A DNA stretch of 64,000 nucleotides from Chryseobacterium formosense. Its GTDB lineage: Bacteria; Bacteroidota; Bacteroidia; Flavobacteriales; Weeksellaceae. Made by a program: the position numbers and the translations under genes. This document shows positions 2,977-27,527 of this stretch, one piece after another (positions within the stretch are counted from its first letter, which is position 1; each line of letters begins with the position of its first letter). The notes beneath the pieces were generated by a model. It was not told the DNA's origin and did no database searches. It was given only the letters and a program-made list of their open reading frames with translations. The DNA is taken from contig NZ_FPAP01000001.1 of the NCBI RefSeq assembly GCF_900116415.1, forward strand, positions 1,178,001 through 1,242,000, written 5' to 3'.

Positions 2977-3029
2977 TGAAAAACTAATACACGAAAATAA
3001 GTATATTTGATACTATCAGATTTATTAAA

Positions 3030-4175
3030 ATGCTAATAAATAAAGATTATATATACTTAGATAATGCTGCTACTACAAGAATAGATGATAATGTTCTCAA
3101 AGAAATGATTCCGTTCATGTCCGAGTTTTATGCTAATTCTTCCAGTTCTCATTTAATGGGAAAAAAAGTTAAAAATGAAATAGTGAACGCTAGAGAGCTG
3201 GTTGCTAATTTATTAAATGCAGATGCTAGCGAAATAGTTTTTACTTCTGGTGCTACCGAGTCGATTAATGCAGTACTGAAAGGGATTGTGGCAAATTCAG
3301 ATAAAACCACAAAGCCACAAATTATTACGGTAGCCACAGAACATTCAGCCATTCTCAACACCTGTAAATATCTTGAAGAAATAGGTTTCGAAGTGATTTA
3401 TCTCCCTGTTTTACAATCAGGAATTCTTGACATAGCTAATTTAAAAAATGTGATTTCTGAAAGAACCCTTGTACTTTCAGTTATGCTAGCTAATAACGAA
3501 ACTGGAGTAATTCAAAATATAAAGGAAATCACAAAAATCGCTCATCAGTTTGAAGCTCTTATGATGACAGATGCTACACAAGCAGTAGGTAAGATTCCCG
3601 TTGATGTTAAAGATCTTGATATCGATTTTTTAATATTTTCGGGACATAAATTTCATGCTCCAAAAGGAATTGGAGGATTTTACTACAAGCAAGAAAACAA
3701 ATTCGTACCATTAATTCATGGCGGTGGGCAAGAGAACAATAGACGCAGTGGTACATCAAATACTTCTGGAATTGTTGGAATTGGTAAATGTGCAGAAATT
3801 AGCCTTAATCAATTGGATCAGGACATTGAATATATTAAAAAACTTCGTGATCGATTGGAGCAAGAACTTTTATTAATTGAAGGAACTTTTGTGAATGGGC
3901 ATTCAGCAGAAAGATTACATAATATAACGAATATATGCTTTCCGAACATAGAGGCAGATTTTCTAATCGGTATGTTGAGAAATATTTGTGTTTCAAATGG
4001 CTCAGCTTGTCACTCTGAACTGATAGAGCCATCTCATGTTTTAATAGAAATGGGGCTAAGTAGTGAAGATGCATTTTCAAGTATCCGCTTTAGCCTTAGT
4101 AAGTATAATACTCAAGAAAAAATTGATTACACCATTAGTAAGGTCAAAGAAATTGTAAATAATTTTCAAACATAA
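3030..4175 (+). CDS. Cysteine desulfurase, IscS/DndA-like, inside a defence operon
   Basis: A 381-residue fold-type I PLP enzyme that would take sulfur from L-cysteine and carry it as a persulfide. The N-terminal YLDNAATT motif, FTSGATES near residue 73, the PLP lysine K207 (SGHKFHAPKG), the GGGQENNRRSGT segment and the catalytic cysteine C327 (NGSACHS) are all present. It lies between two GHKL ATPase genes, 53 bp after the first and 30 bp before the second, in one orientation. A housekeeping desulfurase would be expected beside Fe-S assembly genes; none are here. The context suggests a sulfur donor for DNA phosphorothioation, as with DndA or SspA. Its partner PP-loop enzyme is either upstream of the window or the SspD at 18621. 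Confidence 0.9.
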   Translation: MLINKDYIYLDNAATTRIDDNVLKEMIPFMSEFYANSSSSHLMGKKVKNEIVNARELVANLLNADASEIVFTSGATESINAVLKGIVANSDKTTKPQIITVATEHSAILNTCKYLEEIGFEVIYLPVLQSGILDIANLKNVISERTLVLSVMLANNETGVIQNIKEITKIAHQFEALMMTDATQAVGKIPVDVKDLDIDFLIFSGHKFHAPKGIGGFYYKQENKFVPLIHGGGQENNRRSGTSNTSGIVGIGKCAEISLNQLDQDIEYIKKLRDRLEQELLLIEGTFVNGHSAERLHNITNICFPNIEADFLIGMLRNICVSNGSACHSELIEPSHVLIEMGLSSEDAFSSIRFSLSKYNTQEKIDYTISKVKEIVNNFQT

Positions 4176-4205
4176 TACTATCAAAAAAACTCTAACTAAA
4201 ACACC

Positions 4206-6593: not shown

Positions 6594-6602
6594 GTTATAG
6601 AT

Positions 6603-8378
6603 ATGGATCAACTATTATTTGTTTGGGTTGAAAAATTTAGAAACATTGAAAATGTTGGATTTAATTTTTCAAATCGATATGAAATTAATTATAAGAAAGG
6701 CGAAAATGAAATAATCGTAAATACAGTCGATGGAGAATCTGTTTTAAAAGAAGATGATGTTAAATTACTTTTTAATGATGAAAAACATTATTTGGAAGAT
6801 TTTTTTCAAATCGAAAATAAAAATAATGTAACTATCTCACAAATATGTGCTTTAATAGGCAAAAATTCATCAGGAAAAAGTAATATAATCGATTTTATTT
6901 TGACTGCTATTAGTATAGGTAGCAGAAATAAGTTACAATCAAATTATATCCTAGTTTTTAAAAAAGATAACGAATTATGTTTTTTCGGCAAAACTAACAA
7001 TAATAATTTGAATACTTCTACCCTAATTTGTTTGAACAAAAATGTACCCAAAATTGAACCTGATAAAAATTGGGTGTCAATGTTTTATTCCAATGTAGCA
7101 GATAATAAAGAGCATATCTTTAATGATAGTTCTGTCTACAACTATTCTTTTAATAAACTAAATGAACTACAATCAAACAAAATCGATTTTGTCAGTTCTA
7201 TTTTCTTTGAAGATACTTGGAAGAGATTAAATACGAAAGACTCGCCTATAAAAAATGTCAGATTTGTTTTTAATCCTATTTCGTTTTTAAGAATCGAAAA
7301 AGCAAATGATCTAGATGAAAGGTTAGCCGGAATCTTAAAAAGATATCGTAAAGCTATATATGAAGAGTCTTCTTCAAATGCAAATCGTTTTTATTATGGT
7401 TTAGTAATTAATTTGCTATGTTTTTTATACGAAAGCAAACTTGACATAAGTCCAATATTGCAGGAAGTTAATTTAGTTGGAAGTGATGGATTTGCTGAAG
7501 CCATTAGAATTCTACATCCCAAAGTAGTTTTGTTCCTTGCAGGAATAAATGAGATGGATTCTGATACATTAAAAAAAGATGAATTTGATTCATATAAAAA
7601 TTTAATTAATCAATTTTCTTTAAAAGATGAAGACGGGAAAGTTGTTGTGTACAATTTAGGTCAGATTGATAACTATAACAATTCCATACTTGTAGACTTT
7701 AATGATGATTTCAAGAAAATATTATTAGATAATCAAATCGCATTTAATAACTCAAGTTTGATTACGCATGATTGGTCACAACTAAGTTCTGGTTTGAAAG
7801 CTTACCTTAATTTGTTTTCTCAGTTATTTGATTTAAGTAGCAAAGTTACTAAACCTAACAATCAAAACATTCTAATATGTATTGACGAAGGTGATTTATA
7901 CCTTCATCCAGAATGGCAAAAAAACTTTTTAAATGACTTGATCTGGTTTCTAGAGCAAATATTTACAAATATCAATATACAATTACTATTAACCTCACAT
8001 TCACCATTTTTAATATCCGATTTACCAAAGGAGAATGTTATACTTTTGGACAAAGACTGTAAGCCTGATAGGCAGTTAAATCAAAGTTCATCTTTTGGTG
8101 CAAATATTCATCAACTGTATAATAAACAATTTTTCTTAATCAATGGTGCAATAGGAGAATTTGCTAGAATTAAAATATCAAATATTTTGTCAGAGTTAAA
8201 ATACGTTAATAAAACAACTCTAGAAAAGTATGAAAAATTGATTTCAATGATCGGAGAGCCTGTATTAAGAATTAGACTGGAGGAAGAACTGCAAAAATAT
8301 GTAAAGATGATAGGGAGAGAAGCTTTAATTGAATGGCATAAGTCACAAATTTTACAATTAAATAAGGAAATTGAATGA
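6603..8378 (+). CDS. ABC/SMC-type AAA ATPase, PtuA-like
   Basis: A 591-residue ATPase of the OLD/Septu PtuA type. The start is FVWVEKFRNIENVGFNF, the usual opening strand of these proteins. Walker A is GKNSSGKSN from G86. A signature-like region HDWSQLSSGLKAYL lies near residue 395. Walker B is LICIDEGDLYLHP with D428 and E429, followed by LLTSHSPFLISD containing the switch histidine. No TOPRIM domain is visible after the ATPase, which argues against OLD and for a partner nuclease in trans. The stop overlaps the start of the HNH gene by 4 bp (ATGA), as in Septu ptuA-ptuB pairs. I infer that it senses the invader and controls the HNH nuclease. Confidence 0.78.
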   Translation: MDQLLFVWVEKFRNIENVGFNFSNRYEINYKKGENEIIVNTVDGESVLKEDDVKLLFNDEKHYLEDFFQIENKNNVTISQICALIGKNSSGKSNIIDFILTAISIGSRNKLQSNYILVFKKDNELCFFGKTNNNNLNTSTLICLNKNVPKIEPDKNWVSMFYSNVADNKEHIFNDSSVYNYSFNKLNELQSNKIDFVSSIFFEDTWKRLNTKDSPIKNVRFVFNPISFLRIEKANDLDERLAGILKRYRKAIYEESSSNANRFYYGLVINLLCFLYESKLDISPILQEVNLVGSDGFAEAIRILHPKVVLFLAGINEMDSDTLKKDEFDSYKNLINQFSLKDEDGKVVVYNLGQIDNYNNSILVDFNDDFKKILLDNQIAFNNSSLITHDWSQLSSGLKAYLNLFSQLFDLSSKVTKPNNQNILICIDEGDLYLHPEWQKNFLNDLIWFLEQIFTNINIQLLLTSHSPFLISDLPKENVILLDKDCKPDRQLNQSSSFGANIHQLYNKQFFLINGAIGEFARIKISNILSELKYVNKTTLEKYEKLISMIGEPVLRIRLEEELQKYVKMIGREALIEWHKSQILQLNKEIE

Positions 8379-9580
8379 TATACTTGGGAGAAATACCGAA
8401 AGAAATATTAGATAAACATTGGGAATATTTCGAAAACTCAATTGGATATAAAAAAATTGAGGAATATAAAAACCAGAATATTTTACCAAGCAAACAAAGA
8501 GCACTATTTCGAATTATTAGTAATCACGAATTACTGAAGAAAATAATTATTGGTAAACCTAGTGAAATAAGGGAATTAATTGACCAATATAATGAGGTAG
8601 TTATTAATAAAGGTATTATTATTTCTAATGAAGTCTTTTCTTTCTATAAGGATTTTATTGTTACTGGTGGATGGAATTCTATATGGTTGAAAATTAATAG
8701 AGAGGCATGGTTATCCCATAAAAAAAACATTAAAGCGAGAATGATTTATTTAGATAAAAGATTTTCTTCAATGGAAATGCTTTATGGACTAGGTAAAAAT
8801 GATAGATTAAATATCGGTGTACTAAAGAGCAGATTTAACAATATTAATAATAATATATCTTCCAATTTAGAATCTTGGAATGATTTACTGAAATCTATTT
8901 TTGATTACTCTAAATTTATCGAAATAAACGATAATTGGAACGCATATAAATATACAACAGATTTAGGCATTACAGTTTGTCCATATTGTAACAGAAATTA
9001 CATTCATACATTAGAAACAGACTCGGGTAGAACACGTGCAGAATTAGATCACTTTTATCCAAAATCTTTGTACCCCTTTCTTTCAATATCAATTTACAAC
9101 TTAATTCCAAGTTGTCATATTTGTAATTCTAATTTAAAAGGTTCGAAGAATTTTTTTGAAGAACAACATATGCATCCTTTTGAAAATTTAAATCAAAGTA
9201 AAATTACATTTAAATTACACTATACAGACTTGAAAATAGAAACTGTCATTCCCAATACCAATCAATTTGAAATTGATTTTGATTTTAGTCCAAGCTTGAA
9301 AAATAGTGAAATGACAATGATTAATAATTCATTAAAAACTTTTAAAACTAAAGAATTGTACAATAATCATAAAGATATTGCGCAAGAGTTAATTTATAAG
9401 GCATATTATTATAATAGGACTAAAATAGAGGAATTGCAATCTATTTTAGGAGATAATTCGGGAATTGATGAGAATTTTATTGAAAGAATTGTATATGGCA
9501 ATTATATTCATGAGAACAATTTTGGTAAGAGACCATTAGCAAAATTTACTGGTGAAATAATATCAAATTTAGAAAATTAG
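8375..9580 (+). CDS. HNH endonuclease, PtuB-like
   Basis: A 401-residue protein with a C-terminal-half HNH nuclease core. It shows C202-P-Y-C205, the catalytic E223-L-D225-H226-F-Y-P, and C247-H-I-C250-N, so one zinc is held by two CxxC pairs around the beta-beta-alpha-metal motif. The N-terminal 190 residues are helical and unassigned. Its start overlaps the stop of the ATPase gene by 4 bp, implying translational coupling and a fixed ratio. In Septu the equivalent PtuB is the DNA-cutting subunit. It is the last gene of the operon. The N-terminal extension is longer than in small PtuB proteins, so a Septu-like rather than canonical Septu call is safer. Confidence 0.78.
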   Translation: MIYLGEIPKEILDKHWEYFENSIGYKKIEEYKNQNILPSKQRALFRIISNHELLKKIIIGKPSEIRELIDQYNEVVINKGIIISNEVFSFYKDFIVTGGWNSIWLKINREAWLSHKKNIKARMIYLDKRFSSMEMLYGLGKNDRLNIGVLKSRFNNINNNISSNLESWNDLLKSIFDYSKFIEINDNWNAYKYTTDLGITVCPYCNRNYIHTLETDSGRTRAELDHFYPKSLYPFLSISIYNLIPSCHICNSNLKGSKNFFEEQHMHPFENLNQSKITFKLHYTDLKIETVIPNTNQFEIDFDFSPSLKNSEMTMINNSLKTFKTKELYNNHKDIAQELIYKAYYYNRTKIEELQSILGDNSGIDENFIERIVYGNYIHENNFGKRPLAKFTGEIISNLEN

Positions 9581-10147
9581 AGTTATTATCTACCTCATCT
9601 GGAAAATGTAGATATAAGGTAGCTTTGATATTTGACAATAAAAAATAGTCTTTTGAGAATTTAATACAATTTTACTTAAATTTATTTAAAAATATTATCA
9701 TTAAAATATTAATATTTTAATGATAATATTAAACTTAATTCGATGGCGTCAAGTAAAATAATGTTTGAGCAGATAATAGAACTGTTAAAAGAATTGTGAA
9801 ATATTTGTTCTGGCGGGATTTATTATTTTTTCATAAAAACCCTGTCCATAAGCCTTATGCTATTCTCTTGTTTTTAGGTCACCGAATAGGCCACTTTTAC
9901 AAACAATGTAGAAAGCGTCGTTTTTACTGGTGCAGAGATATGGCTTTTTTAGTTTAATATAATTATTTTGAAAACTATCTACAGTATCCGAGCTTAATTT
10001 CCTTATTATCAATTATAATAATTTTTTATCCATTAAAAATAAATCCAAAAATGTGGCGGACGAATGTGCTTTGATTTTTTTAACATGAAAAATATTTTAG
10101 ACAACCAATAATTCTACTGAAAAATAAGATTATTTATACCGTAAAGT
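9581..10147. other. Convergent intergenic region after the first defence operon
   Basis: About 570 bp separate two convergent transcription units. It contains a 40-bp perfect palindrome (9691-9730, listed separately) and no credible open frame. A patch at about 9870-9930 is less A+T-rich and may be a remnant of something, but I do not recognise it. Confidence 0.6.
9691..9730. repeat. 40-bp perfect palindrome without spacer
   Basis: The left arm (9691-9710, beginning AATATTATCATT) is the exact reverse complement of the right arm (9711-9730, ending AATGATAATATT). There is no loop base and no mismatch. It consists almost entirely of A and T. It lies 110 bp after the HNH stop in a convergent region, so it may act as a bidirectional terminator hairpin, although the absence of a G+C stem makes it unusual. 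Confidence 0.85.
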
Positions 10148-14498: not shown

Positions 14499-15416
14499 AT
14501 GAAGAAAGAAGAAACTACAACTCTAAAAAAGCTTACTTTTTCTGGTCACGACACGTTTCACTGCAGGCAATTGTGGTTAAAAAAAGGTTATGATTTTATA
14601 AAAAACGGGAAAAAATTCGTTGATGACGATGCTGTGATTACATTGGGCGTTGGAAAAAATATGGTTTCAGCTATTCATTTTTGGATGAAAGCATTTGGCT
14701 TATTGGATAAAAATGGAAATACTACTGATTTTGCTAATTATATTTTTGACAGTGATAATGGCAAGGATCCTTACTTGGAGGACAATGCCACCTTGTGGCT
14801 TCTTCATTATCAACTAATTACACAAAACCTATCATCAACGTATAATTACATTTTCAATGACTTAAGAAAAGAAAGAATTGAATTCACAAAAGACAACTTC
14901 CTTTCATTTATAGAAAGAAAATCTTCAGAAGTTGGCTTTTCTCAATTCAACAAAAAAACCGTAAGTACGGATTTTGATGTTTTTCTCAAAACCTATAACA
15001 GAACTGATGAGCAGGTAAAGGATCGGGAAGATACTTTTTCAGGTCTATTAACTGATCTAAACTTATTACAAGAAGAAAAAAGGAAGCTAGACGACAAACG
15101 GACTGTTACATATTATTCACTTCCGAATACCAACAGAAGTGATATCCCGGAAGAAATAATCTTATACACTATTTTGGATGGTAAGGATTTTCAGAAATCT
15201 ATCAGTTTCAATACTATCAGTCAAGATACTGATCAAGCAGGATTAGTATTTGCTATCGGTAAATCTGCTTTACTTGAAAAAATACAAGGCGTTATCGCAA
15301 ATCCCAAGTACAAAAAATATGGTTTAATATTGAACGACCACGCAGGTATAAAGGAATTGCAATTTTCAACAAAACCTGAAAAGTTTGAGGTTTTAAACAA
15401 TTATTATGGCAACTAA
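14499..15416 (+). CDS. sspB: SspB-like DUF4007 protein of DNA phosphorothioation
   Basis: A 305-residue DUF4007 protein. The diagnostic N-terminal block is FSGHDTFHCRQLWLKKG (residues 14-30), followed by VTLGVGKNMVSAI, which is typical of the family. In characterised SspABCD systems SspB is the DUF4007 protein, a nickase needed for inserting sulfur in one strand. It opens a rightward operon and overlaps the next gene by 11 bp. The combination with an ATPase and a PP-loop sulfurtransferase immediately downstream, and a cysteine desulfurase nearby, supports the assignment. Assigning nickase activity to this copy is by family only. Confidence 0.78.
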   Translation: MKKEETTTLKKLTFSGHDTFHCRQLWLKKGYDFIKNGKKFVDDDAVITLGVGKNMVSAIHFWMKAFGLLDKNGNTTDFANYIFDSDNGKDPYLEDNATLWLLHYQLITQNLSSTYNYIFNDLRKERIEFTKDNFLSFIERKSSEVGFSQFNKKTVSTDFDVFLKTYNRTDEQVKDREDTFSGLLTDLNLLQEEKRKLDDKRTVTYYSLPNTNRSDIPEEIILYTILDGKDFQKSISFNTISQDTDQAGLVFAIGKSALLEKIQGVIANPKYKKYGLILNDHAGIKELQFSTKPEKFEVLNNYYGN

Positions 15417-18400
15417 ATTCACAACATCAATTAATATAATCCGTGATACAAATAGAGAGATAAATTATATCCCGACACCCAATGCTATACGTATTGCTGA
15501 CCAAATAGGTAAAGATTACGAACAAGGATTAAGATCATTTAATATTATTGGCTCATATGGAACCGGAAAAAGTTCATTTCTATGGGCTTTTGAGCAGACC
15601 GTAAAGAAAAATCGAAATTACTTTGGATTAGATTTGATTAAAAATGCCAAGGTTAAGTTTATAAAAATTGTTGGTTCATTTCGTCCAATAAGAGAGGCTC
15701 TTATGGATGCTTTGGATATTGACGCAAAAATGAATTCTCCTGAGAATATATTTACCGAACTATTTAACATTTATCATGACTTGGGAAGCAGTCCCCTATT
15801 GGTTATAGAGATAGATGAATTTGGGAAATTTTTGGAATATGCATCGAAAAACAATCCGGAAAATGAACTATATTTTATACAACAGTTTACAGAATTCCTA
15901 AATAATCCGGATTTAAATATTCTGTTGCTCACAACTGTTCATCAAAATTTTGATGCCTATGCATTGGGGCTTTCTAAATTACAAAGACAGGAATGGGCAA
16001 AGGTGAAGGGAAGATTTAAAGAAATAACTTTCAACGAGCCTATAGAGCAGTTATTATATTTAGCTGCAGAACACCTTGAAGAAAAAGCATCAAGCAATTT
16101 TGAGAATGTAAAGATTGACAATATTTTAAAACTGCTGATAGATTCAAAGGTGTTTACCGTAAATGAAAATTACATTAAAAATATTGCTGAAAAAATTTTC
16201 CCACTCGAAATTTTTTCAGCCTTTCTAATTACAACATCCTTACAGAAATATGGTCAGAATGAGCGATCATTATTCTCTTTTCTGGAGTCAACGGATCACA
16301 CTAGCTTATATCAGCATTACATACTAAATAAGGGACTGTACACAATAGCAGACGTATACGATTATCTTATTTATAATTTTTTTTCATTTATAAACTCAAG
16401 ATATAATCCTGATTTCAGTGGTTGGAAAAATATCAAGTCAACATTGGAACGCGTAGAAAGTTCCTTTGATGAAAACATTGAGGATTATATAAAAGTAGTT
16501 AAGACAATAGGGCTTTTATCATTTAATGCAAAGGCGGGTGCTATCTTAGACTATAATTTTTTCAGTCAATATGCAGAACTTTGTTTATCTATTAAGGATG
16601 CAGGAAAGTTATTAGCAAATCTGGAAAAGAAGAAAATAGTTTTATACCGAAACTATAGCAACAGATATATACTTGCTGATGGTACAGATCTTGACATTGA
16701 AGGAGCTTTATTTGAAGCTGCAAAAAAGATAGAAGAAGAAGTTAAGGACGTAGTAACCTTGCTCAAGAAAAATTATCCCTTAAGTCCTATTCTTGCGAAA
16801 AGGGCTATGTTTGATACTGGTGCACCGAGATTATTTGAGTATGTCATTTCTTCGGAGGCTATTACTCAAAAACCCGTAGGAGAGATAGACGGATTTGTAA
16901 ATCTGATATTTAACGACAGGAATATTCTCCCAGAAATAATCAGTACTTCTAAAGAATGTAAAGAAGCTATTCTTTACTGCTATTACAAAAATTCTGGAGA
17001 TATACAGGAACTTCTTTTTGAAATCGAGAAGACACAAAGAGTAATTGAAGAAAATCAAGATGACAAAGTTGCTATCACTGAATTGCAAAACATTATAGTG
17101 CATCAAAGAAATTTATTGAATTACCGTATTATACATAGTCTATTCATTGCCAACACCCCGGTAATCTGGATATTTGATGGTAGAGAGCACATCCTTCCAA
17201 CGCAAAAAGATTTCAATAAGTTTCTTTCTGAAATTTGTAAAACGGTTTATGACAAGACCCCATATTTTAACAATGAGCTTGTAAACAAGCATAAAATATC
17301 AACATCAATTCATACTGCGAAACGAAATTACTTTAAGGCTCTTGTTCAAAATTGGGATGTTCCACATCTTGGTTTTCCAGAAGATAAGTTTCCTCCTGAA
17401 AAAACTATTTATCTTTCACTACTGGAAAATAATGGTATCAGGCTATACGACAATTCTTTGTCATCCATTATAGAGCCACATAATGAAAATGGGTTCAAAA
17501 ATTTGTGGGACGCTTCTGTAGATTTTATGAATAGTAGTAAAACATCAAAAAGAAGAATTACAGAACTAGCAGATCTATTAAATAATAAACCATTCAAGCT
17601 AAAACAAGGTCTTATCGACTTCTGGATACCAACATTCCTCTTTATAAAAAGAGATGAATATGCTTTATTTGGCAGTAACGGTTACATCCCCTATATTACT
17701 GAAGAAATTTTAGATTTAATTTCCAAAAGGCCTTTTGAGTTTGAAATTAAAGCATTTGCACTTGATGGTGTAAGGGTGGATATTTTTAATAGCTACAGAA
17801 CCATCATAAATCTTCAATCAAAGACCAATATCAGCAATGAATCGTTTATAGAAACAATAAAACCATTTTTAATTTTTTACAAAAAACTGCCACTATATTC
17901 TAAAATTACCACCAGATTATCGAAAGAAGCCATTTCCATAAGAAAAGCGATTTCAGATTCTAAAGATCCGGAAGAAACTTTTTTTGAAGATTTTCCATCT
18001 TCACTGGGATATTCTATAAAGACTCTACAGAACGATAGAACTGCGCTTATACAATACGTTACAAAACTTCAGGACTCCATAAAAGAATTGCGAAATTGCT
18101 ATGATGGATTAATAGACCGCTTCGAAACATTTTTGCAAGATAAGTATTTTAACAATGAGTTTTCATTTGAAGGCTATCAAGAGGCATTTCAAAAGAGATA
18201 TAAAAAACTCCACAGACATTTGCTAGTTCATTCGCAAAAAACCTTTGTTATGAGACTAGATTCCAAAATTGACGTAAGGAATGCCTGGTTAAATGCATTA
18301 GCTCAGGTTCTAGTCGGGAAAACATTGGAAAATTTCAAGGATGAGGATGAATTGATATTGTATGATAAGTTTCAGGAGATGATTTTATCGTTGGACAGTT

Positions 18401-18624
18401 TGAATAAAATATCAGAGACCAAATTTGACGAAAGCAAAGAATATGTACTCGACATAAATATTAATTCTTTTCAGGATGGTCCTATGCAAAAGATAATTCG
18501 TTTGCCAAAAGAAAAGAATCACGAAGTAACGAATCTTGAAAAAAACATCAAGCAGCTATTATCAAAAGATCGACAAACTGATCTGGCAGCGTTGGCATCT
18601 GTTTTAAAACAATTATTAGAATGA
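15406..18624 (+). CDS. sspC: SspC-like large P-loop ATPase
   Basis: A 1072-residue ATPase. Walker A is GSYGTGKSS from G49 (K55), Walker B is VIEIDEFGKF with D137 and E138, and a sensor-like strand NILLLTTVHQNF follows near residue 180. The rest is long and helical without a recognised nuclease motif. In SspABCD systems the protein encoded between SspB and SspD is the ATPase SspC, and size and order agree. It overlaps sspB by 11 bp and sspD by 4 bp. I infer that ATP hydrolysis here coordinates target selection or strand opening during sulfur insertion. Assignment rests mainly on gene order plus the ATPase motifs. Confidence 0.75.
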   Translation: MATKFTTSINIIRDTNREINYIPTPNAIRIADQIGKDYEQGLRSFNIIGSYGTGKSSFLWAFEQTVKKNRNYFGLDLIKNAKVKFIKIVGSFRPIREALMDALDIDAKMNSPENIFTELFNIYHDLGSSPLLVIEIDEFGKFLEYASKNNPENELYFIQQFTEFLNNPDLNILLLTTVHQNFDAYALGLSKLQRQEWAKVKGRFKEITFNEPIEQLLYLAAEHLEEKASSNFENVKIDNILKLLIDSKVFTVNENYIKNIAEKIFPLEIFSAFLITTSLQKYGQNERSLFSFLESTDHTSLYQHYILNKGLYTIADVYDYLIYNFFSFINSRYNPDFSGWKNIKSTLERVESSFDENIEDYIKVVKTIGLLSFNAKAGAILDYNFFSQYAELCLSIKDAGKLLANLEKKKIVLYRNYSNRYILADGTDLDIEGALFEAAKKIEEEVKDVVTLLKKNYPLSPILAKRAMFDTGAPRLFEYVISSEAITQKPVGEIDGFVNLIFNDRNILPEIISTSKECKEAILYCYYKNSGDIQELLFEIEKTQRVIEENQDDKVAITELQNIIVHQRNLLNYRIIHSLFIANTPVIWIFDGREHILPTQKDFNKFLSEICKTVYDKTPYFNNELVNKHKISTSIHTAKRNYFKALVQNWDVPHLGFPEDKFPPEKTIYLSLLENNGIRLYDNSLSSIIEPHNENGFKNLWDASVDFMNSSKTSKRRITELADLLNNKPFKLKQGLIDFWIPTFLFIKRDEYALFGSNGYIPYITEEILDLISKRPFEFEIKAFALDGVRVDIFNSYRTIINLQSKTNISNESFIETIKPFLIFYKKLPLYSKITTRLSKEAISIRKAISDSKDPEETFFEDFPSSLGYSIKTLQNDRTALIQYVTKLQDSIKELRNCYDGLIDRFETFLQDKYFNNEFSFEGYQEAFQKRYKKLHRHLLVHSQKTFVMRLDSKIDVRNAWLNALAQVLVGKTLENFKDEDELILYDKFQEMILSLDSLNKISETKFDESKEYVLDININSFQDGPMQKIIRLPKEKNHEVTNLEKNIKQLLSKDRQTDLAALASVLKQLLE

Positions 18625-19724
18625 AGAAGGTAAGACATTTATTGGGAATCTCAGGCGGTAAAGACAGTGCTGCACTTGCTATCTATATGCAGCAGAATTA
18701 TCCAAATTTAGAAATTGAGTATTATACAACAGACACAGGGAAAGAACTGAAAGAAACGTATGACCTTATTGATAATCTGGAAAATTATTTAGGAAAAAAA
18801 ATAAAACGCCTCAAGAGTTATGAAGGCAGCAACGAGGCACCTTTTGATCATAAATTAAAATCTCTGATGGGTTTCTTGCCTTCTGCACAAAACAGATGGT
18901 GTACGAAATATCTAAAATTAGATCCTTTTGAAAAATTTGTAGGCGATGATCTTGTTATTTCTTATGTCGGTATTCGTGGAGATGAAGACAGAGAAGGTTA
19001 TATCTCAAGAAAATCAAATATCCAATCCATTTTTCCGTTCCGGAAAAATATCTGGAGTGAGGATGTGATGCAGAAATTTTTAAATAATTCTAATTTAGAA
19101 AATCTAATGAATTTCTATTCATCGCTTGATTTAGGTTCAAAAAAAGATAGAATATTAGAAATTGTAAAAACGCCAATTTCACTCGATTTTCAATTATCTC
19201 AAAAATTAAATATCCTATTAGACCTTGGGATTATAGCTTTTAATAATGCTGTTTTCAGTTTCCTGAAAACGACTTCTTATCCTTTAGCGGTTGAAGAAGA
19301 ATTTCCCTTAATCGAAAATAAAGACATTCTTGTAAGAGATGATATTTTTAAGTTGTTACGAGAGAGCAATGTTGGCGTACCAGGCTATTATGAAAAAATT
19401 GACTTTGAAGTGAACGGTCAGATAGGGCAATATGCAAGGAGTCGCTCAGGGTGCTATTTTTGTTTCTATCAACAAAAAATAGAATGGATCTGGCTATATG
19501 AACAACATCCGGATAAGTTCCAACAGGCAATAGATTACGAGAAAGACGGGTACACTTGGATTCAGGATGAAACATTGTCTGATCTTATAAAACCCGCAAG
19601 GATTACACAAATTAAAGAAGAATATTTAAAGCGTTCAAAAAGAAATTCACAACCTCAATCTCCTTATCTTATTGATATACTAGAAGATGCCGAAGGAGAA
19701 GGCTGTGCAAGCTGTTTTATTTAA
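18621..19724 (+). CDS. sspD: SspD/DndC-like PP-loop sulfurtransferase (PAPS reductase family)
   Basis: A 367-residue ATP-pyrophosphatase that would adenylate the DNA phosphate for sulfur exchange. The PP-loop S11-G-G-K-D-S16 is intact, and YYTTDTGKEL matches the conserved second strand. Cysteines C94 (RWCTKY), C278 and C281 (SGCYFCFYQQ) and C362 and C365 (EGCASC) could hold an iron-sulfur cluster, as in DndC. The start overlaps the sspC stop by 4 bp, and the next gene begins 5 bp after its stop. Family assignment is secure; SspD rather than DndC is chosen because SspB and SspC precede it and no DndB, DndD or DndE is present. Confidence 0.85.
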   Translation: MKKVRHLLGISGGKDSAALAIYMQQNYPNLEIEYYTTDTGKELKETYDLIDNLENYLGKKIKRLKSYEGSNEAPFDHKLKSLMGFLPSAQNRWCTKYLKLDPFEKFVGDDLVISYVGIRGDEDREGYISRKSNIQSIFPFRKNIWSEDVMQKFLNNSNLENLMNFYSSLDLGSKKDRILEIVKTPISLDFQLSQKLNILLDLGIIAFNNAVFSFLKTTSYPLAVEEEFPLIENKDILVRDDIFKLLRESNVGVPGYYEKIDFEVNGQIGQYARSRSGCYFCFYQQKIEWIWLYEQHPDKFQQAIDYEKDGYTWIQDETLSDLIKPARITQIKEEYLKRSKRNSQPQSPYLIDILEDAEGEGCASCFI

Positions 19725-19729
19725 AATAT

Positions 19730-21952
19730 ATGAACAAAGAAGACTCAATATACTTTAACGTAGACGCCGGACTGATTGACCGTTTGGGAAGAGAGCTCGT
19801 AGGAAGAGCTGAAACTGCTGTTTCAGAACTTATTAAAAATGCTTATGACGCTGATGCTAAGATGGTCGAAGTTGATTTTATTGACACTCAGGAAAAAGGA
19901 GGAACATTGGTCATTCGTGATGACGGTGTCGGAATGACCTTGGATCAGTTACGAAATGGTTTTATGACTATTTCTTCGACAGACAAGATTCATAACCCCA
20001 AATCACTTCGATACAACAGAAGTAAAGCTGGTAAAAAAGGAATAGGACGTTTTGCAACTCAAAGGCTGGGTGAAAAATTAATAATAATTACGCAAACCCT
20101 CGAATCTGACGACGCTATAAAATTAACAGTCAATTGGGATGACTATAAAATAGACACCGCATTGACCAGTGTTGAAAACAAAATAGAATTCATTCCGAAA
20201 GCACGGAAAGAAGGAACAACACTTATTATAGAAAATTTAAGAGAATCGTGGTCCGAGGCAGATCTTCGCAGGGTTTACAGGTATGTTTCTGATTTGTTGC
20301 AACCCGATTATATCTCAGACAGAAGTAAAGAATTGGGCTTGGCAATAAACTCTGACGAATTCTTTAAAGTAGTTTTCAGACAAATTTCAGATAATCAGCC
20401 AAAAATAATAGCCGATACAAACAAAATGCTTCTCAGCAAGGCTCTAGCTGTAATAGAAGGCTATGTTGACAGTTCACAAGACGGATATTGTATGGTTACA
20501 AGCAATAGTTTGGACCTTAGTGATGATATTATCGCTATTTATAATTCGGAAAAAACACCAAAATTTCACAATCTTGGTGAGGTGCATTTTAAAGTATATT
20601 ATTTTATCTATCAAAGAGAAAAATATTATGCTGATGGTATTTCGAAAACAGAATTATCAAATATTCAAAAAATAGCTAATGAACAAGGTGGAATAAGATT
20701 GTACCGAAATGGTTTCCGCGTCGTTCCTTATGGTGAATCTAATAATGACTGGTTACATATCGATAAGCGATACTATAATGAATCAGGAACCAATGCTCCT
20801 TTTGGTAATCGTAATGTTTTCGGCTTTGTAGAAATTATTGATTCTAACGGTAATCTTTTTGAAGAAACTGCAAGTCGTGAAGGTTTAATAGAAAACTATG
20901 CCTTTCGGGAACTTACTACATTTTTGCACAAAGCTCTGATGGCAGGAAGAGATAGAATTCGATATGCAGTAGAAAAGTTAAAAAAGGAGGTATATCAGAA
21001 TAATCCTTCCTCTACAAATCAAAATGAACCTCCGAAGACAACTTTTGAGAAACTAGAAGATCTGTTTAAAAATGTTGACGACCTTGTTAACAATTCCTCT
21101 TCGGACAAAAGTGTGGCAACACAAAACTTAAAGCAGAGTACTCAAAAAATAGTTAAAGAGTTAAAAGGAGATTTCCAATCTATAATAGACGAGCTGGGGA
21201 TGTTAAGAGTTTTGGCTGGTTTGGGATTGACAATTGGAGAGTTTACTCACGAAGTAGTCCAGTTCACTCCATCAATAATGGGTGATTTAAGTGTTTTAGG
21301 AAATCAGAATCTGAATGATAATGGAATTCAGTCATTGGAAAATCTTAAAAGAACCATACACCTATTCACATCTTACACCTCCTATTTTAATGCAACAGTG
21401 TCCGCTAATGTCAGTCGAGAGCTAAAGCCTCAGGATGTAGAAAAGGTAGTATCACAATTTAGAAAAGTCATTCAGGCAGATTTAGAAAAATTGAATATTG
21501 AATTGGAAATTGAAACATATGGTTACGATCTGGTTTCGCTACCAATGCATTCATCAGAATGGACGTCAATTTTATTCAATTTATATACTAATGCAAAAAA
21601 AGCCATTAGAAGAAAGTCGACTGATGGAAAATTAAAAATTGTAGTAGGAAAAGAAGGAAAATATGTATATTTAGAATTCGCTGACAATGGTGACGGAATC
21701 CCCGTAAATAACAAAGCCAGAATCTTTGATGCTTTTTTTACCACCTCCTCTCCTGTTGGGTTTGATGCTTCTGATGATGAAAAATTAACAGGTACGGGTC
21801 TTGGGCTAAAAATTGTTAAAGACATCATTCAGACGTACGGAGGTTCGATTGACATTATTGACCCAGAAACTGGATATGCAACATGCTTTAAAATTGAATT
21901 ACCATTGGCAACTAATAAACAAAGAGAAGAATATGAACAATACGATGTATAA
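19730..21952 (+). CDS. Double-GHKL ATPase with H-box-like motif, fourth gene of the ssp operon
   Basis: A 740-residue protein with two ATP sites. The N-terminal one is HSP90/MORC-like: N-box E33, N37, D40 (SELIKNAYDADA), G1 box RDDGVGM, then a lysine/glycine lid (KAGKKGIGRFATQ). The C-terminal one is of the histidine-kinase type: N-box NLYTNAKKAI, G1 ADNGDGI and G2 GTGLGL near residue 688. Between them IGEFTHEVVQF carries H507 in an H-box-like setting. No membrane segment is seen, so it is cytoplasmic. It starts 5 bp after sspD and overlaps the receiver-like gene by 20 bp. I infer an ATP-gated sensor kinase acting on the next gene product, tied to phosphorothioation. It is not a known SspE. 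Confidence 0.72.
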   Translation: MNKEDSIYFNVDAGLIDRLGRELVGRAETAVSELIKNAYDADAKMVEVDFIDTQEKGGTLVIRDDGVGMTLDQLRNGFMTISSTDKIHNPKSLRYNRSKAGKKGIGRFATQRLGEKLIIITQTLESDDAIKLTVNWDDYKIDTALTSVENKIEFIPKARKEGTTLIIENLRESWSEADLRRVYRYVSDLLQPDYISDRSKELGLAINSDEFFKVVFRQISDNQPKIIADTNKMLLSKALAVIEGYVDSSQDGYCMVTSNSLDLSDDIIAIYNSEKTPKFHNLGEVHFKVYYFIYQREKYYADGISKTELSNIQKIANEQGGIRLYRNGFRVVPYGESNNDWLHIDKRYYNESGTNAPFGNRNVFGFVEIIDSNGNLFEETASREGLIENYAFRELTTFLHKALMAGRDRIRYAVEKLKKEVYQNNPSSTNQNEPPKTTFEKLEDLFKNVDDLVNNSSSDKSVATQNLKQSTQKIVKELKGDFQSIIDELGMLRVLAGLGLTIGEFTHEVVQFTPSIMGDLSVLGNQNLNDNGIQSLENLKRTIHLFTSYTSYFNATVSANVSRELKPQDVEKVVSQFRKVIQADLEKLNIELEIETYGYDLVSLPMHSSEWTSILFNLYTNAKKAIRRKSTDGKLKIVVGKEGKYVYLEFADNGDGIPVNNKARIFDAFFTTSSPVGFDASDDEKLTGTGLGLKIVKDIIQTYGGSIDIIDPETGYATCFKIELPLATNKQREEYEQYDV

Positions 21953-23069
21953 ATATTTATATATTGACGATACCAGAGAGCGCCTGGAAGAAGGAATGAT
22001 CAATGCATTGCAGGACAATAGCAATATAGAAATCACATTTCGAGGACCCTCTGACTGGGAAACTATTATAGAGTATTTAAAAACAGAACTACCTAAGCAT
22101 AATGGAATCATATTAGACCTTAGATTAAATGATATAGCATACGCGAAAGGAAAATATGCGCAGTATAAAGGAAGCACGGTTGCGCAAGAATTAAGATCAT
22201 TAACTAAAGAAGGACTTTTAAATGATTTTCCAATGATTTTGTTTTCCGGAACCGATAAGTTAGATCATTATCTTGATCCTACAAGCAAAGATCTTTTTGA
22301 TAAAATCGTCGACAAAACTAAAATCGAACAACCTGGATACTTCAATTATGAAGATTTTAAGATAAAGCTTAAATGGTTAGCAGACGGATATAGTTTTTTA
22401 AATGATTTAAAAAATCGTTCTGTCGAGCATATTTTCAAGATGGATGATCTTACGTTTTTTGATCCAAGGTTTATAGATCATTTCAATTCTCTATTGACAA
22501 AACCAATACACATAGTTGCTCATTTTATTATAAAGGAAGTTATAGGGAAACCCTGCTTTCTAATAGATGAAAATTATCTTTCTGCTAGAATGGGAATAGA
22601 TAAGCAATCGGAAGATTGGTCTGCATTTCTTGAAAAAATCTCAGGATGTAAATATACAGGTGCATTCTCAAACTATTTTGATCGCTGGTGGATGCCTGCA
22701 ATAAATAAATTTTGGCAAACAGAAATTTCAACAGAACAAAGCTTAAGAACATTAGGAAGCCCGAAACGTATAGAGCTCTTGATAGAAAAAACTGGATTAC
22801 AGAATTTAAATCCGCTTAGCAAGACTAAAAATGCAAAAAGTGAATCTTTCTGGGTCAGCTGTAAAGCTACTGGTATAAGCATTGATACGGTAGACGGATT
22901 CATATTAGCAGGACAGGAAAATCGTCACCCATGGCAGGAACCAGAATACATATCTTCAGATGAAGCACTACGACCTACAAAAGATTATTCTGTTTCCATT
23001 ACTGAAAGACCAAGATTAGAGAAATTAAAAAATCTTTTAGAAAAAAATGAGCAGCGAATTAGAAAATAA
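21933..23069 (+). CDS. Receiver-domain-like protein with unassigned C-terminal domain
   Basis: A 378-residue protein taken from the ATG at 21933, which overlaps the upstream stop by 20 bp; an ATG at 21945 is also possible. The first 125 residues look like a response-regulator receiver: acidic pair D12-D13 after a hydrophobic strand, candidate phospho-acceptor D62 in GIILDLRL, and S105 in MILFSGTD at the switch position. The remaining 250 residues have no DNA-binding helix-turn-helix that I can see and match nothing I know. Sitting directly behind a kinase-like gene and coupled to it, it is probably the phosphotransfer target, with the C-terminal domain as the output. Confidence 0.65.
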   Translation: MNNTMYKYLYIDDTRERLEEGMINALQDNSNIEITFRGPSDWETIIEYLKTELPKHNGIILDLRLNDIAYAKGKYAQYKGSTVAQELRSLTKEGLLNDFPMILFSGTDKLDHYLDPTSKDLFDKIVDKTKIEQPGYFNYEDFKIKLKWLADGYSFLNDLKNRSVEHIFKMDDLTFFDPRFIDHFNSLLTKPIHIVAHFIIKEVIGKPCFLIDENYLSARMGIDKQSEDWSAFLEKISGCKYTGAFSNYFDRWWMPAINKFWQTEISTEQSLRTLGSPKRIELLIEKTGLQNLNPLSKTKNAKSESFWVSCKATGISIDTVDGFILAGQENRHPWQEPEYISSDEALRPTKDYSVSITERPRLEKLKNLLEKNEQRIRK

Positions 23070-23781
23070 AATCATTGGTTCTGATCTCTGTAAGTTAGCA
23101 GATCTTCTACAACAATATAATCTATGTAGTGATGTTTCTCCATTACAGAATGCAGGTATTCTGTGCCTTCATTCTGCAACAGAGCATTCTTGGGAGTACA
23201 GTATGGCAAAAATGGTTTTCAGAGCGGACGAAGTAGGCGGACGTATTCCTTTGGAGTCTGAAGATTTCTCAGTTTCATTAACAGTAGAAATCCAAGGCAT
23301 AAGTTTAACAGATGAGCTAAAGGATCCTCTTACAAAATTATTTTTTGATATAGAGATTGAGGGAATTCACTCTTTAGATTGTAGAGATTTATATGCATCT
23401 TGGCACTTAGATAGGCATATAGGTAAATCCACTGATGCTAAAACTAAATATTCTCATCCGTTTTATCATTTTACGTTTGGGGGTGATAAGATGGAGTGCA
23501 AGGGAGATATGTTCGGTGGAACTCTAATACTACCATCACCGAGAATTGCATATCCCCCAATGGATGCAATTTTAGGAATTGATTTCATTCTGCAGAACTA
23601 TCTACATAAAGATCAGTTGAATGCAATAATTCAGGATTCAGAATATACAGAAATAATCCGAAGGGCTCAGGAGCGTTTACTAAAACCCTATTTTTCATCT
23701 ATAATGTCCTATTGGGATAAGGCGACCTATACACCAGTCGTCGACTTTAGTTGTAATAAATTATTTCCTTTATTTTATTAA
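23047..23781 (+). CDS. Unknown protein, last gene of the ssp operon
   Basis: A 244-residue protein that I do not recognise. Visible features are an early CLHSATEHSWEYSM segment, a conserved-looking ASWHLDRHIG and HPFYHFTFGG stretch with several histidines around residues 119-148, then a proline-rich turn (PSPRIAYPP) and a helical C-terminus. There is no signal peptide or membrane helix. The start overlaps the receiver-like gene by 23 bp, so it is translationally coupled and almost surely part of the same system. The histidines could bind metal, but no known nuclease pattern is complete. It ends about 70 bp before the convergent desulfurase gene. Confidence 0.7.
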   Translation: MSSELENKIIGSDLCKLADLLQQYNLCSDVSPLQNAGILCLHSATEHSWEYSMAKMVFRADEVGGRIPLESEDFSVSLTVEIQGISLTDELKDPLTKLFFDIEIEGIHSLDCRDLYASWHLDRHIGKSTDAKTKYSHPFYHFTFGGDKMECKGDMFGGTLILPSPRIAYPPMDAILGIDFILQNYLHKDQLNAIIQDSEYTEIIRRAQERLLKPYFSSIMSYWDKATYTPVVDFSCNKLFPLFY

Positions 23782-23851: not shown

Positions 23852-24994
23852 TTATACGTTGCGCATAAATTGATGTATTCTTTCCATAAAAACAAAGATA
23901 TCTTTGTCAGTGGTGTTCCTCCCCATAGATATACGTATGCTTCCTAATGCATCTTCATTGGACAAACCCATCGTAGAAAGAACGTGCGATGGCTGGACTA
24001 ATCCTGCAGTACACGCTGAACCATTACTTACTGCAATATTTTTATTCATCCCGATGAACAATTCTGTGTCAAAATCAGGAATACAAACATTTACTGTATT
24101 GTATATCCTTTCGGCATTACCACAATTAATGTAGGCATTGTTAATTTTGAGAAGCTGACTTTCTACTGTATTTCTTAGTTGAGTTAATACGCTCTCATTT
24201 TCCTTCATTTCCATTTTAGCTATCTCAAAAGCCTTTTTCAATCCTGCAATTAAAGGTATATTATAAGTTCCGCCTCTCATTCCATTCTCTTGGCCACCAC
24301 CGTGAATCAAAGGCTGTATTTTATTTTGTTTTGTAATAGAACTATTAATATACAGACCTCCAATACCTTTCGGAGCATACATCTTATGACCCGAAAAACA
24401 AAGAATATCAATATTTGACTCTTCAACATCTACCGCTAGTTTACCTACACCCTGCGTTGCATCACATACAAAATATACACCCGATTCCTTTGCAATTTTT
24501 CCTATTTCTTTTATCGGGTGTATAAGACCAGTTTCATTATTAACCCACATAAGGCAAATTAACAAAGTATCCTGTCTAATTGTAGATTTCAGCAATTCTA
24601 AATCTAAACTTCCATCCCTATTAACTGGCAAATAATCGATCTCATAGCCAATACTTTCTAAATATATACAAATTTCTAAAACAGCTTTGTGCTCTGTAGA
24701 ACAGGTAATGATATGTTTTTTATTGTTTCCCGGATTAAGTGCCAATCCTTTTAATGCGAGGTTTAGACCTTCTGTAGCTCCAGAAGTAAAATAGATTTGC
24801 CTCTTTTCTGTTCCAAATGTCTCAGCAATCTCTAGACGTGCTTCATCCAATATAAATTTTGATTTTTTGCTGAAATCATAATTGCTTGAGGCATTTGCAT
24901 AATATTCTTCGAAATATGGCAGCATTTCTTGGATAACCCGTTTATCAACGGGAGTCGTAGCATTATAATCTAGGTAAACTATTCCATCATCCAT
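23852..24994 (-). CDS. sspA: SspA-like cysteine desulfurase
   Basis: A 380-residue PLP-dependent cysteine desulfurase. Motifs include YLDYNATTPVD at the N-terminus, FTSGATEG, the PLP lysine K204 (SGHKMYAPKG), GGGQENGMRGGT and catalytic C328 (NGSACTAG). It is convergent with the six-gene ssp operon and ends 70 bp from it. In SspABCD systems SspA supplies sulfur to SspD, so this is the natural partner even though it has its own promoter. It is a clear paralogue of the desulfurase at 3030-4175, with the same length and motif order but different residues around the cysteine (ACTAG here, ACHSE there). Confidence 0.88.
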   Translation of the reverse strand: MDDGIVYLDYNATTPVDKRVIQEMLPYFEEYYANASSNYDFSKKSKFILDEARLEIAETFGTEKRQIYFTSGATEGLNLALKGLALNPGNNKKHIITCSTEHKAVLEICIYLESIGYEIDYLPVNRDGSLDLELLKSTIRQDTLLICLMWVNNETGLIHPIKEIGKIAKESGVYFVCDATQGVGKLAVDVEESNIDILCFSGHKMYAPKGIGGLYINSSITKQNKIQPLIHGGGQENGMRGGTYNIPLIAGLKKAFEIAKMEMKENESVLTQLRNTVESQLLKINNAYINCGNAERIYNTVNVCIPDFDTELFIGMNKNIAVSNGSACTAGLVQPSHVLSTMGLSNEDALGSIRISMGRNTTDKDIFVFMERIHQFMRNV

Positions 24995-26246: not shown

Positions 26247-27527
26247 CTATTTCTTCTTCGGATTCTTAAAAGAAAATACGATTCTCCCTATCGTCTTATC
26301 AAAAATCATATATCCTTGATAGGTCTTTCCTTTTCTGCTCTCCAATCCCTTGATATAAGCCACATCCCCTGCCTTCAACTTATCCATCTGCCATCTTCGA
26401 AGTTTCTTTCCCCTGAAAGCTAAAGGAACTTCCCTTTCAGAATGATGTCCTTCGCTAAAACCAGAACTTCTGAACTTATTCTCAAACAAAAACTCCACCC
26501 ATTGCCTATCGGTATTAAATTGCACCATAGCAGAAAAAAGTTTCCCTTTCTTCGACAACATATTTTCAATACACAAAGATTTCCCATCACGAAGCACCTG
26601 TTTTTGTTCCAAATCCAATCTCACCCCGCAAAGCACATCAGGAATCCTCACAAATTCCACCCACAATGAGATCAGCTCATTGGTCAGCCTGTCCAAACTT
26701 ATCAATGACGGAATTATTTCGCCTGTCACCGCATCAATAAGATCCACCACTCTGCCCATATTTCCGGAATTTAAAAGATTAATCCTATCCTCTTTTGTAA
26801 ACTTGTGACCTTTAAACTTCTTTCTGAAATCCACTTTCTTACAAACCCGATGCACCTTAACGATCAATTCTCCATCATCATCGATCCGCAACTGCAACCG
26901 TGCATCAATCTGACTTACCGTTTCCCCATCTTTAAAAAGTACCGGGATCAACATTGGTGTCTTATATCCCTTTAACAAAGAATCCAACGCACCTATCTCT
27001 TCCAATTTTTCGCTGTCAAGACCCAATTCAGCGATCGTGTCCCACGGAACATCTTCGATCTGATAGCGGTATTGAGAACTACTATTACTAGTAACTGACC
27101 CGTTACTAAACCCCTTCTTCAAAACAGAAGGCTCATTTTCAATGGTTCTCTTATTTCTGATCGCATTGACCGCTTCAATAGACACTTCAACCGCTTTCAG
27201 ATCTTGTCTCTCACCCTCAGATAAACAATCAATGTACTCTTGTAAATCTATAGCTGTATCGTGTGCCTCGAATTCCCTCACTTTAAAAAATGAATATTCA
27301 GAGGGATCTTTCAGCTGATGGTAAAAATCCGAATAGAAGTCCGTAAAAGAATACTCCGCCGAATCGATCCGCATGATTGTATCTACCTTATTACGGTCAG
27401 GCTGAAAGTCTATGAGATTTCCGTTGTGTTCGATGCCCTGTACAATTCCAACGGAATTGTTACTGTGACGAAGTACCAATAAAGTACTCACCTCTGAAAT
27501 TGCCGTGTGATTTCCTATTTTGTTCAT
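26247..27527 (-). CDS. DUF4099/DUF3945 mobile-element protein
   Basis: A 426-residue protein typical of Bacteroidetes conjugative and integrative elements. The N-terminal 140 residues are variable. A DUF4099-like domain follows from about residue 160 (DVPWDTIAELGL, LDSLLKGYKTPML, FTKEDRINLLNSGNMGRVVDL). A DUF3945-like region ends the protein (RGKKLRRWQMDKLKAGD, KGKTYQGYMIFDK, FSFKNPKKK). The molecular role of these domains is not established. It is followed by a hairpin terminator and preceded, 60 bp upstream on the same strand, by a RadC gene, another common passenger of such elements. No relaxase, Tra or integrase gene is in the window, so this is probably a leftover. Confidence 0.72.
   Translation of the reverse strand: MNKIGNHTAISEVSTLLVLRHSNNSVGIVQGIEHNGNLIDFQPDRNKVDTIMRIDSAEYSFTDFYSDFYHQLKDPSEYSFFKVREFEAHDTAIDLQEYIDCLSEGERQDLKAVEVSIEAVNAIRNKRTIENEPSVLKKGFSNGSVTSNSSSQYRYQIEDVPWDTIAELGLDSEKLEEIGALDSLLKGYKTPMLIPVLFKDGETVSQIDARLQLRIDDDGELIVKVHRVCKKVDFRKKFKGHKFTKEDRINLLNSGNMGRVVDLIDAVTGEIIPSLISLDRLTNELISLWVEFVRIPDVLCGVRLDLEQKQVLRDGKSLCIENMLSKKGKLFSAMVQFNTDRQWVEFLFENKFRSSGFSEGHHSEREVPLAFRGKKLRRWQMDKLKAGDVAYIKGLESRKGKTYQGYMIFDKTIGRIVFSFKNPKKK

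Follow-up and report, generated by a model that had tools for sequence, protein, structure and literature searches.

A double-GHKL histidine kinase, a receiver-like protein and E3 as a possible sensing and interference arm of an SspABCD DNA-marking system

The 64,000-nucleotide stretch of Chryseobacterium formosense DNA analysed here, referred to as the window, holds the genes of an Ssp DNA phosphorothioation system, namely sspB, sspC, sspD and a cysteine desulfurase gene. The first three lie in this order upstream of a gene for a histidine kinase with two GHKL ATP sites, and the kinase gene is followed by those of a receiver-like protein and of a third protein, E3 (Table 1). Read from the ATG at 21933, the receiver gene shares 20 bases with the kinase gene; an alternative ATG lies at 21945. 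Promoter-like sites occur near expectation (56 against 50.0 ± 7.4 in shuffles), and so do terminator-like sites (8 against 5.6 ± 2.1). The alignment of short-form relatives with the window SspD breaks at around residues 160–230, suggesting an insertion.

Table 1 Genes and features of the kinase locus, in window positions
Feature	Position	Strand	Evidence or remark
sspB (DUF4007)	14499..15416	+	PADLOC SspB E 2e-106; Pfam DUF4007
sspC ATPase	15406..18624	+	PADLOC SspC 1405 bits
sspD, PAPS-reductase-like, long form	18621..19724	+	PADLOC SspD E 1e-91
Double-GHKL histidine kinase (P0001)	19730..21952	+	Single ORF, 740 aa
N-terminal GHKL ATP site, HATPase_c_3, residues 28-140, MORC/Hsp90/MutL-like, Glu33	19811..20149	+	Pfam E 4e-22
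DHp-like helical hairpin, residues 461-561	21110..21412	+	Fold model; profile alignment to solved kinases
Codon CAC of H507, predicted phospho-accepting histidine	21248..21250	+	His in 76/76
C-terminal kinase-type GHKL ATP site, HATPase_c, residues 612-727	21563..21910	+	Pfam E 1.6e-26
Response-regulator-like protein (P0002), 378 aa	21933..23069	+	Profile E 4e-4 to solved response regulators
Codon of D62, predicted phospho-acceptor	22116..22118	+	Asp in 65/65
E3 (P0003), 244 aa, no known family	23047..23781	+	Third gene of cassette
Cysteine desulfurase, sspA/dndA-like, convergent with operon	23852..24994	-	PADLOC SspA E 2e-144, DndA E 6e-144

The Ssp systems described in the available text of PMC8092258 are SspABCD-SspE and SspABCD-SspFGH. 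The window shares their sspBCD marking genes and cysteine desulfurase, but its effector slot holds the kinase, the receiver and E3, and searches for SspE in the genome were negative. Among the seven proteins of the window locus, PADLOC has no match for SspE, SspF, SspG or SspH. An SspE encoded elsewhere in the genome was rejected, as neither GmrSD_N nor one PADLOC SspE model matches there, while the same searches are positive in 8 and 6 of 14 control genomes, respectively. A PbeA-like effector was likewise not found in this genome, in a search without a positive control. According to PMC8092258, 2,211 of 2,678 sspBCD sets are without sspE and sspFGH, and undiscovered restriction partners were suggested.

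In the GHKL superfamily, a box with Glu is diagnostic of the ATPase type and a box with Asn of the kinase type. The N-terminal site of the kinase reads E33-xxx-N37, D64-x-G66-x-G68 and G101-x-KGIGRF, and the C-terminal site reads N617-xxx-N621, D652-x-G654-x-G656 and G688-x-G690-x-G692. Given the Pfam E-values in Table 1, neither ATP domain is a chance match, and chance or mis-drawn domains are excluded by these E-values, conservation and fold. We aligned 76 kinase sequences, 61 of them at ≥30% identity and 15 more distant; the set comprises P0001 and 75 of 80 kinase ORFs and omits L031 (a plasmid record), L040 (nearly a copy of L039) and the three additional GHKL proteins that L109 and L112 contain. 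E33, N37, N617, N621, G654, G690 and G692 are each present in all 76 sequences, as is H507, while D652 and F666 are present in 74, so that the N, G1, F and G2 boxes are all represented. At the neighboring E508, 69 of the 76 sequences have Glu and 3 have Asp. The kinase has eight histidines; for the seven besides H507, conservation ranges from 1 to 61 of the 76 sequences. The initial annotation had proposed an HSP90/MORC-like N-terminal site and a histidine-kinase-like C-terminal site with H507 of the motif IGEFTHEV between them; the reading agrees with both domain matches and with the codon, and neither loss of H507 among homologues nor lack of kinase-type residues in the second site, which would have spoken against it, was seen.

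Double-GHKL proteins are common, with widespread full-length relatives: 1,297 plasmid records match the kinase, and 66 of them span ≥80% of its length at a single site. No relative of P0001 turned up in viral contigs, where the scan yielded two pattern matches.

The predicted structure of the kinase has a mean pLDDT of 84.4 and a pTM of 0.64, the latter leaving the relative placement of its domains uncertain. The model, which the initial annotation had called for, places H507 in a helix (residues 461–524) that is followed by a second helix (530–561) and then by the catalytic domain, forming a DHp-like hairpin; confidence around H507 is moderate, with block means of pLDDT 54–84 over residues 491–530. 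Foldseek finds Hsp90, SMCHD1, MORC3, MORC2 and MutL and also ZraS, HK853 and CckA, each as a partial match with a TM-score of about 0.2 by model length and up to 0.61 by target. VIA-align superposes residues ~494–728 on DHp-CA modules, with Z 20.3 over 239 residues at 5.2 Å for 4gcz and Z 19.7 over 148 residues at 2.0 Å for 9jfj. Positions 493–740 of the kinase family profile match ZraS with E 1e-33, and the H507 column falls on the H-box histidine of ZraS and likewise on those of HK853 and 3a0r, presumably ThkA. These H-box histidines are the phosphorylated residues of the three kinases. P0001 thus carries its H-box histidine within a DHp hairpin, as two-component sensor kinases do, and the signalling half is well supported, with sequence and predicted structure in agreement. 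Like ZraS, HK853 and other HisKA-type kinases, P0001 combines a DHp hairpin with a catalytic domain; unlike them, it has a second GHKL ATPase module in the usual position of the sensor domain. This N-terminal part (residues 10–410) has a GHKL site with the catalytic Glu and an S5-like domain, as in MORC and paraMORC proteins, and superposes on TRAP1 (4ipe) with Z 18.9 over 246 residues at 9.7 Å. The idea of the initial annotation that a DNA-clamping ATPase signals through phosphorylation therefore stands in its signalling half; DNA clamping is suggested by the fold similarity of the N-terminal module to the Hsp90, MORC, SMCHD1 and MutL modules, and may or may not apply here.

A paraMORC-type DNA remodeller or clamp would not need phosphate transfer, and the kinase half could be a structural relic in which the DHp-CA module only dimerises. 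The N-terminal ATPase site and S5-like domain are intact, and a BbrUII/HgiDII-type restriction enzyme model matches this part of the protein. In such a relic we would not expect both halves of a phosphotransfer pair to be conserved, and yet H507, N617, N621, G654, G690 and G692 are kept in 76/76 kinases and D62 in 65/65 receivers; we regard a relic as very unlikely.

The combination of ATPase and kinase, which the initial annotation had implied to be new, was published in 2021: Bellieny-Rabelo et al. (PMC8011034, available text) describe proteins with HATPase_c_3, HEF_HK and HATPase_c domains, a receiver partner and a link to restriction-modification. P0001 has the HEF_HK layout, in which HATPase_c_3 and HATPase_c flank a His followed by Glu or Asp, and shares with the HEF_HK/Response_reg_2 pair a soluble arrangement of HATPase_c_3, a DHp-like region and HATPase_c, a nearby receiver gene and a link to DNA modification. 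The partners differ, as the window-type kinases stand with ssp genes or an Eco57I-type adenine methylase and a conserved E3 follows; six terms for Ssp and phosphorothioation are absent from the available main text of PMC8011034. The HEF_HK model PF19191 has no match at E 0.1 for P0001 or for the kinases of L035, L045 and L103, nor anywhere in the own genome, and reaches E 0.008, below the cut-off, for a distant relative (L033). Response_reg_2 (PF19192) has no match for P0002 at E 0.1 and is unlisted for the 65 receivers. Plain HEF_HK membership is ruled out by these two unmatched families, and the window kinase is, as judged from its sequence, a divergent relative of the published HEF_HK kinases. 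The paraMORC families defined by Iyer, Abhiman and Aravind in 2008 (PMC2292703, available text) share with the window kinase an N-terminal GHKL domain with an S5-like module and restriction-modification neighbourhoods; in place of the nuclease domain of paraMORC3, the window kinase has a histidine kinase core at its C-terminus. The architecture is thus known, and what is new is the compact kinase-receiver-E3 cassette and E3 itself; the initial annotation mentioned neither the Ssp operon nor the third gene. No description of this cassette was found in the literature searched, which subscription papers mostly fall outside. It is absent from the phosphorothioation and BREX systems in the available text of PMC10853773 and PMC12839542, and PMC7824862 contains both cREC and GHKL.

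P0002 consists of a receiver domain and a C-terminal part without a known family. The receiver family profile aligns its acidic pair and D62 with those of solved response regulators, over the receiver part only (Table 1). In an alignment of 65 receivers (P0002 and 64 of the 66 listed, L031 and the short L059 being omitted) D62 is invariant, D13 is kept in 64, S/T105 in 63 and K128 in 60, and D12 is Asp in 56 and Glu in the remainder. The family thus has the acidic pair, phospho-Asp, Ser/Thr and Lys of response regulators. P0002 alone has no Pfam match, iREC and Response_reg each match 3/65 members, and most other single-member Pfam and PADLOC matches were set aside as chance. From the conserved residues, we infer that the kinase autophosphorylates on H507 and that the phosphate is transferred to the receiver Asp.

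A two-component relay would usually suggest regulation, and this is the main rival to the reading that we favour: the kinase would sense the state of DNA or ATP, the receiver would control the marking genes and E3 would be an accessory. The conserved phospho-residues of kinase and receiver fit such a role. The available texts of PMC7464106, which speculates that kinases beside SspE regulate its expression, and of PMC8011034, which speculates on signalling cascades controlling restriction-modification systems, point the same way. Against it, no HTH or other DNA-binding output domain was recognised among the 16 Pfam families listed for the 65 receivers, although an output fold may have been missed, and the strict three-gene set with E3 is left unexplained. 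Since SspE was not found, the marking genes would also have no known restriction partner under this rival. We therefore consider a purely regulatory system rather unlikely.

E3 has no Pfam family, and its 64 listed members give single weak Pfam and PADLOC matches, which we dismissed as chance because they are scattered over single members. Its model is confident (pLDDT 91.7), and no significant fold match was found by Foldseek in the PDB (best E 0.56) or in BFVD (best E 0.1), with VIA-align reaching Z ≤3.7. The most conserved positions over 66 members are P138 (66), H141, R166 and P171 (65 each), D122 and P165 (64 each) and H120 (63). The E3 alignment comprises P0003 and 63 of the 64 listed members, with L031 omitted; the truncated E3 of L050 falls under the length limit of the E3 list. 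Neither a recognised nuclease motif nor a recurrent toxin family was matched, and E3 has no match in phage records. A search of 395 genomes from the phylum with the E3 profile, scoring up to 7 candidates per genome, was positive in 3, and the kinase was nearby in all three; in one of them (G148), the window-type receiver was undetected by tblastn. In a class-level sample of 395 genomes, the receiver protein is present in 2.

E3 is a candidate effector, and its target could be the cell. In such an abortive infection, phage attack or loss of the mark would set off the relay, and E3 would act as a toxin on the cell and not on invading DNA. A small protein with conserved His, Asp and Arg and no known fold would suit this role, as would the sporadic, defence-gene-like occurrence of the receiver (2/395 genomes). 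The lack of a recurrent toxin family or a significant fold match speaks against it, and the exclusive pairing of the cassette with one marking module, described below, fits interference with unmarked DNA equally well. We consider abortive infection improbable.

The genome scan with the kinase found at least 515 relatives. We examined 82 loci, that is, the best 80 of these at least 515, the window and a Hymenobacter plasmid (L031), and in this set the kinase-receiver-E3 cassette is present in 66. The intergenic gaps do not exceed 13 and 21 bases in any of the 66. Because the 82 loci were chosen through the kinase, they alone cannot show how often E3 stands by itself. Within the same set, 51 cassettes stand with a methylase cluster, 11 with ssp genes (the window included) and 4 with neither, and none with both; the marking partners are mutually exclusive in the loci examined. 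The methylase partner is named by its gene cluster, of which two cassette-linked members were scanned with Pfam and gave N6_Mtase and Eco57I; for one cassette-linked methylase the top-scoring PADLOC model is a type II methyltransferase, and the partner in L031 is annotated as an N-6 DNA methylase. The four cassettes without a marking module among the adjacent ORFs examined count against an interference arm. Among the 16 loci without a cassette, one has a receiver gene at a contig end, two have a methylase only, 12 have neither and in one, L097, sspD stands with a truncated kinase; several of the 16 are cut at contig ends, and others are distant (24–28% identity).

Several cassettes have further genes of interest nearby. 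Two of the four partnerless cassettes have another gene immediately upstream, encoding an HNH protein in L057 and a DndB-like protein in L091. In L083, a DruA-like (Druantia) protein (8387-9673, minus strand) lies directly 5' of the cassette, which has no obvious marking module. AbiEi-like genes, assigned by Pfam in L055 and by the same cluster in L059, L071 and L099, lie upstream of methylase-linked or truncated cassettes, and 3 of these 4 loci also have AbiEii-cluster genes. PbeA/PbeC-like cluster genes are found near the cassette in L036, L038, L041, L044, L050, L068 and L088, of which the last has a PbeA-like gene only; ssp genes are present in 6 of the 7. The Pbe identity comes from PADLOC scans of the L038 proteins, PbeC being the weaker, and from clustering for the other loci.

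A tree of 61 kinases at ≥30% identity and three outgroup rows was calculated by a quick method that used no mixture model, and 8 of these kinases carry no group label. All 10 Ssp-linked kinases in the tree fall into one clade (SH-aLRT 99), together with four kinases without a visible marking partner, the latter counting against an interference arm. The methylase-linked kinases are outside this clade and basal, with the outgroup join flagged for long branches, so a single exchange of partner suffices. Pairwise distances correlate at 0.90 between kinase and receiver, 0.84 between receiver and E3 and 0.78 between kinase and E3 (n = 66), compared to 0.59 between kinase and methylase (n = 49), 0.53 between kinase and SspD (n = 11) and –0.04 between kinase and SspC (n = 10); these values are inflated by relatedness and come from subsets that differ between pairs. 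By this measure, the cassette genes seem to travel together more tightly than with their marking partner.

Of 395 genomes from the phylum, 21 have SspD at E 1e-30 or better. For the 20 Ssp loci besides the window, flanks of up to ~10 kb per side were examined, some of them cut by contig ends. The window-type cassette is optional, being present in 2 of the 21 sampled Ssp loci, the window and L162; the latter is apparently on the same contig (238,309 bases) as L041. A second double-GHKL sub-family, nearer to an Acinetobacter protein and outside the kinase tree, occurs in 3 of the 21. A PbeA-like helicase is present in 6 of the 20 loci and is another candidate effector, which counts against an interference arm; L162 has both this helicase and the cassette. 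One further Ssp locus (L155) has a short GHKL match.

Next to sspD, the Acinetobacter locus L130 encodes a receiver-like protein of 646 aa and an intact double-GHKL kinase of 779 aa. This kinase agrees at each of the 19 residues checked and is only distantly related to the window type (24.5% identity to a window-type kinase over a 680-column alignment). The Acinetobacter Ssp locus thus resembles the window in that Ssp genes adjoin a kinase and a receiver gene, and differs from it in its distant kinase sub-family and its 646-aa receiver-like protein. The kinase gene lies in separate frames in L125 (14749-17090) and is intact in L130 (14749-17088); for both records it is missing from the gene table, which is incomplete. 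A tblastn search of L125 found neither a window-type receiver nor E3. In the literature, kinases adjoin SspE in 211 Acinetobacter strains (PMC7464106, 2020, available text), and sspE is absent beside 5,518 of 5,530 Acinetobacter Ssp sets (PMC12421847, 2025, available text). The latter study notes other restriction endonuclease genes and a two-component system in the region and suggests a new Ssp variant. The gene pair meant in both papers is probably the L130-type pair; the available text of neither mentions two GHKL sites. Double-GHKL kinases probably joined Ssp systems at least twice.

Weighing these results, we propose that a soluble sensor kinase opens a three-gene cassette serving a DNA-marking system, in this case SspABCD, as its arm for sensing and interference, and give this reading a probability a little under one half (about 0.47). 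In this mechanism the N-terminal GHKL-S5 module, going by its fold, would close on DNA in an ATP-dependent, MORC/MutL-like manner and read the mark. The long helix would relay closure or hydrolysis to the DHp hairpin, where H507 would be phosphorylated by the C-terminal domain. The phosphate would then move to D62 of the neighboring receiver, a step to which the conserved residues and the coupling of the genes point. The phosphorylated receiver may work with or on E3, which would perform or license interference with unmarked DNA. A more far-reaching form, which we regard as possible but tentative, is that the His-Asp relay reads DNA marks in general and has direct interference through E3, a new effector family, as its output, with one cassette type serving both N6-methyladenine and backbone phosphorothioate.

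The cassette is a concrete candidate for the restriction partner of some of the sspBCD sets that have neither sspE nor sspFGH. If the proposed mechanism is true, the recognition of DNA marks would be coupled directly to a two-component relay, and E3 would represent a new effector family. On the kinase tree, the apparent one-step exchange of methylase and phosphorothioation partners would offer a clean way to study one sensor with two marks.

Two further regions of the window are of note. A separate operon-like run on the plus strand (118-9580) encodes a 952-aa NOV_C protein, a 381-aa ORF, a 795-aa HATPase_c_3 protein, a 591-aa AAA_21 ATPase and a 401-aa protein without an assigned family, and may be a further defence system that includes a GHKL protein. 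On the minus strand next to the ssp operon (26247-27527) is a gene for a DUF4099/DUF3945/Toprim_Crpt protein, which we take to suggest a mobile element.
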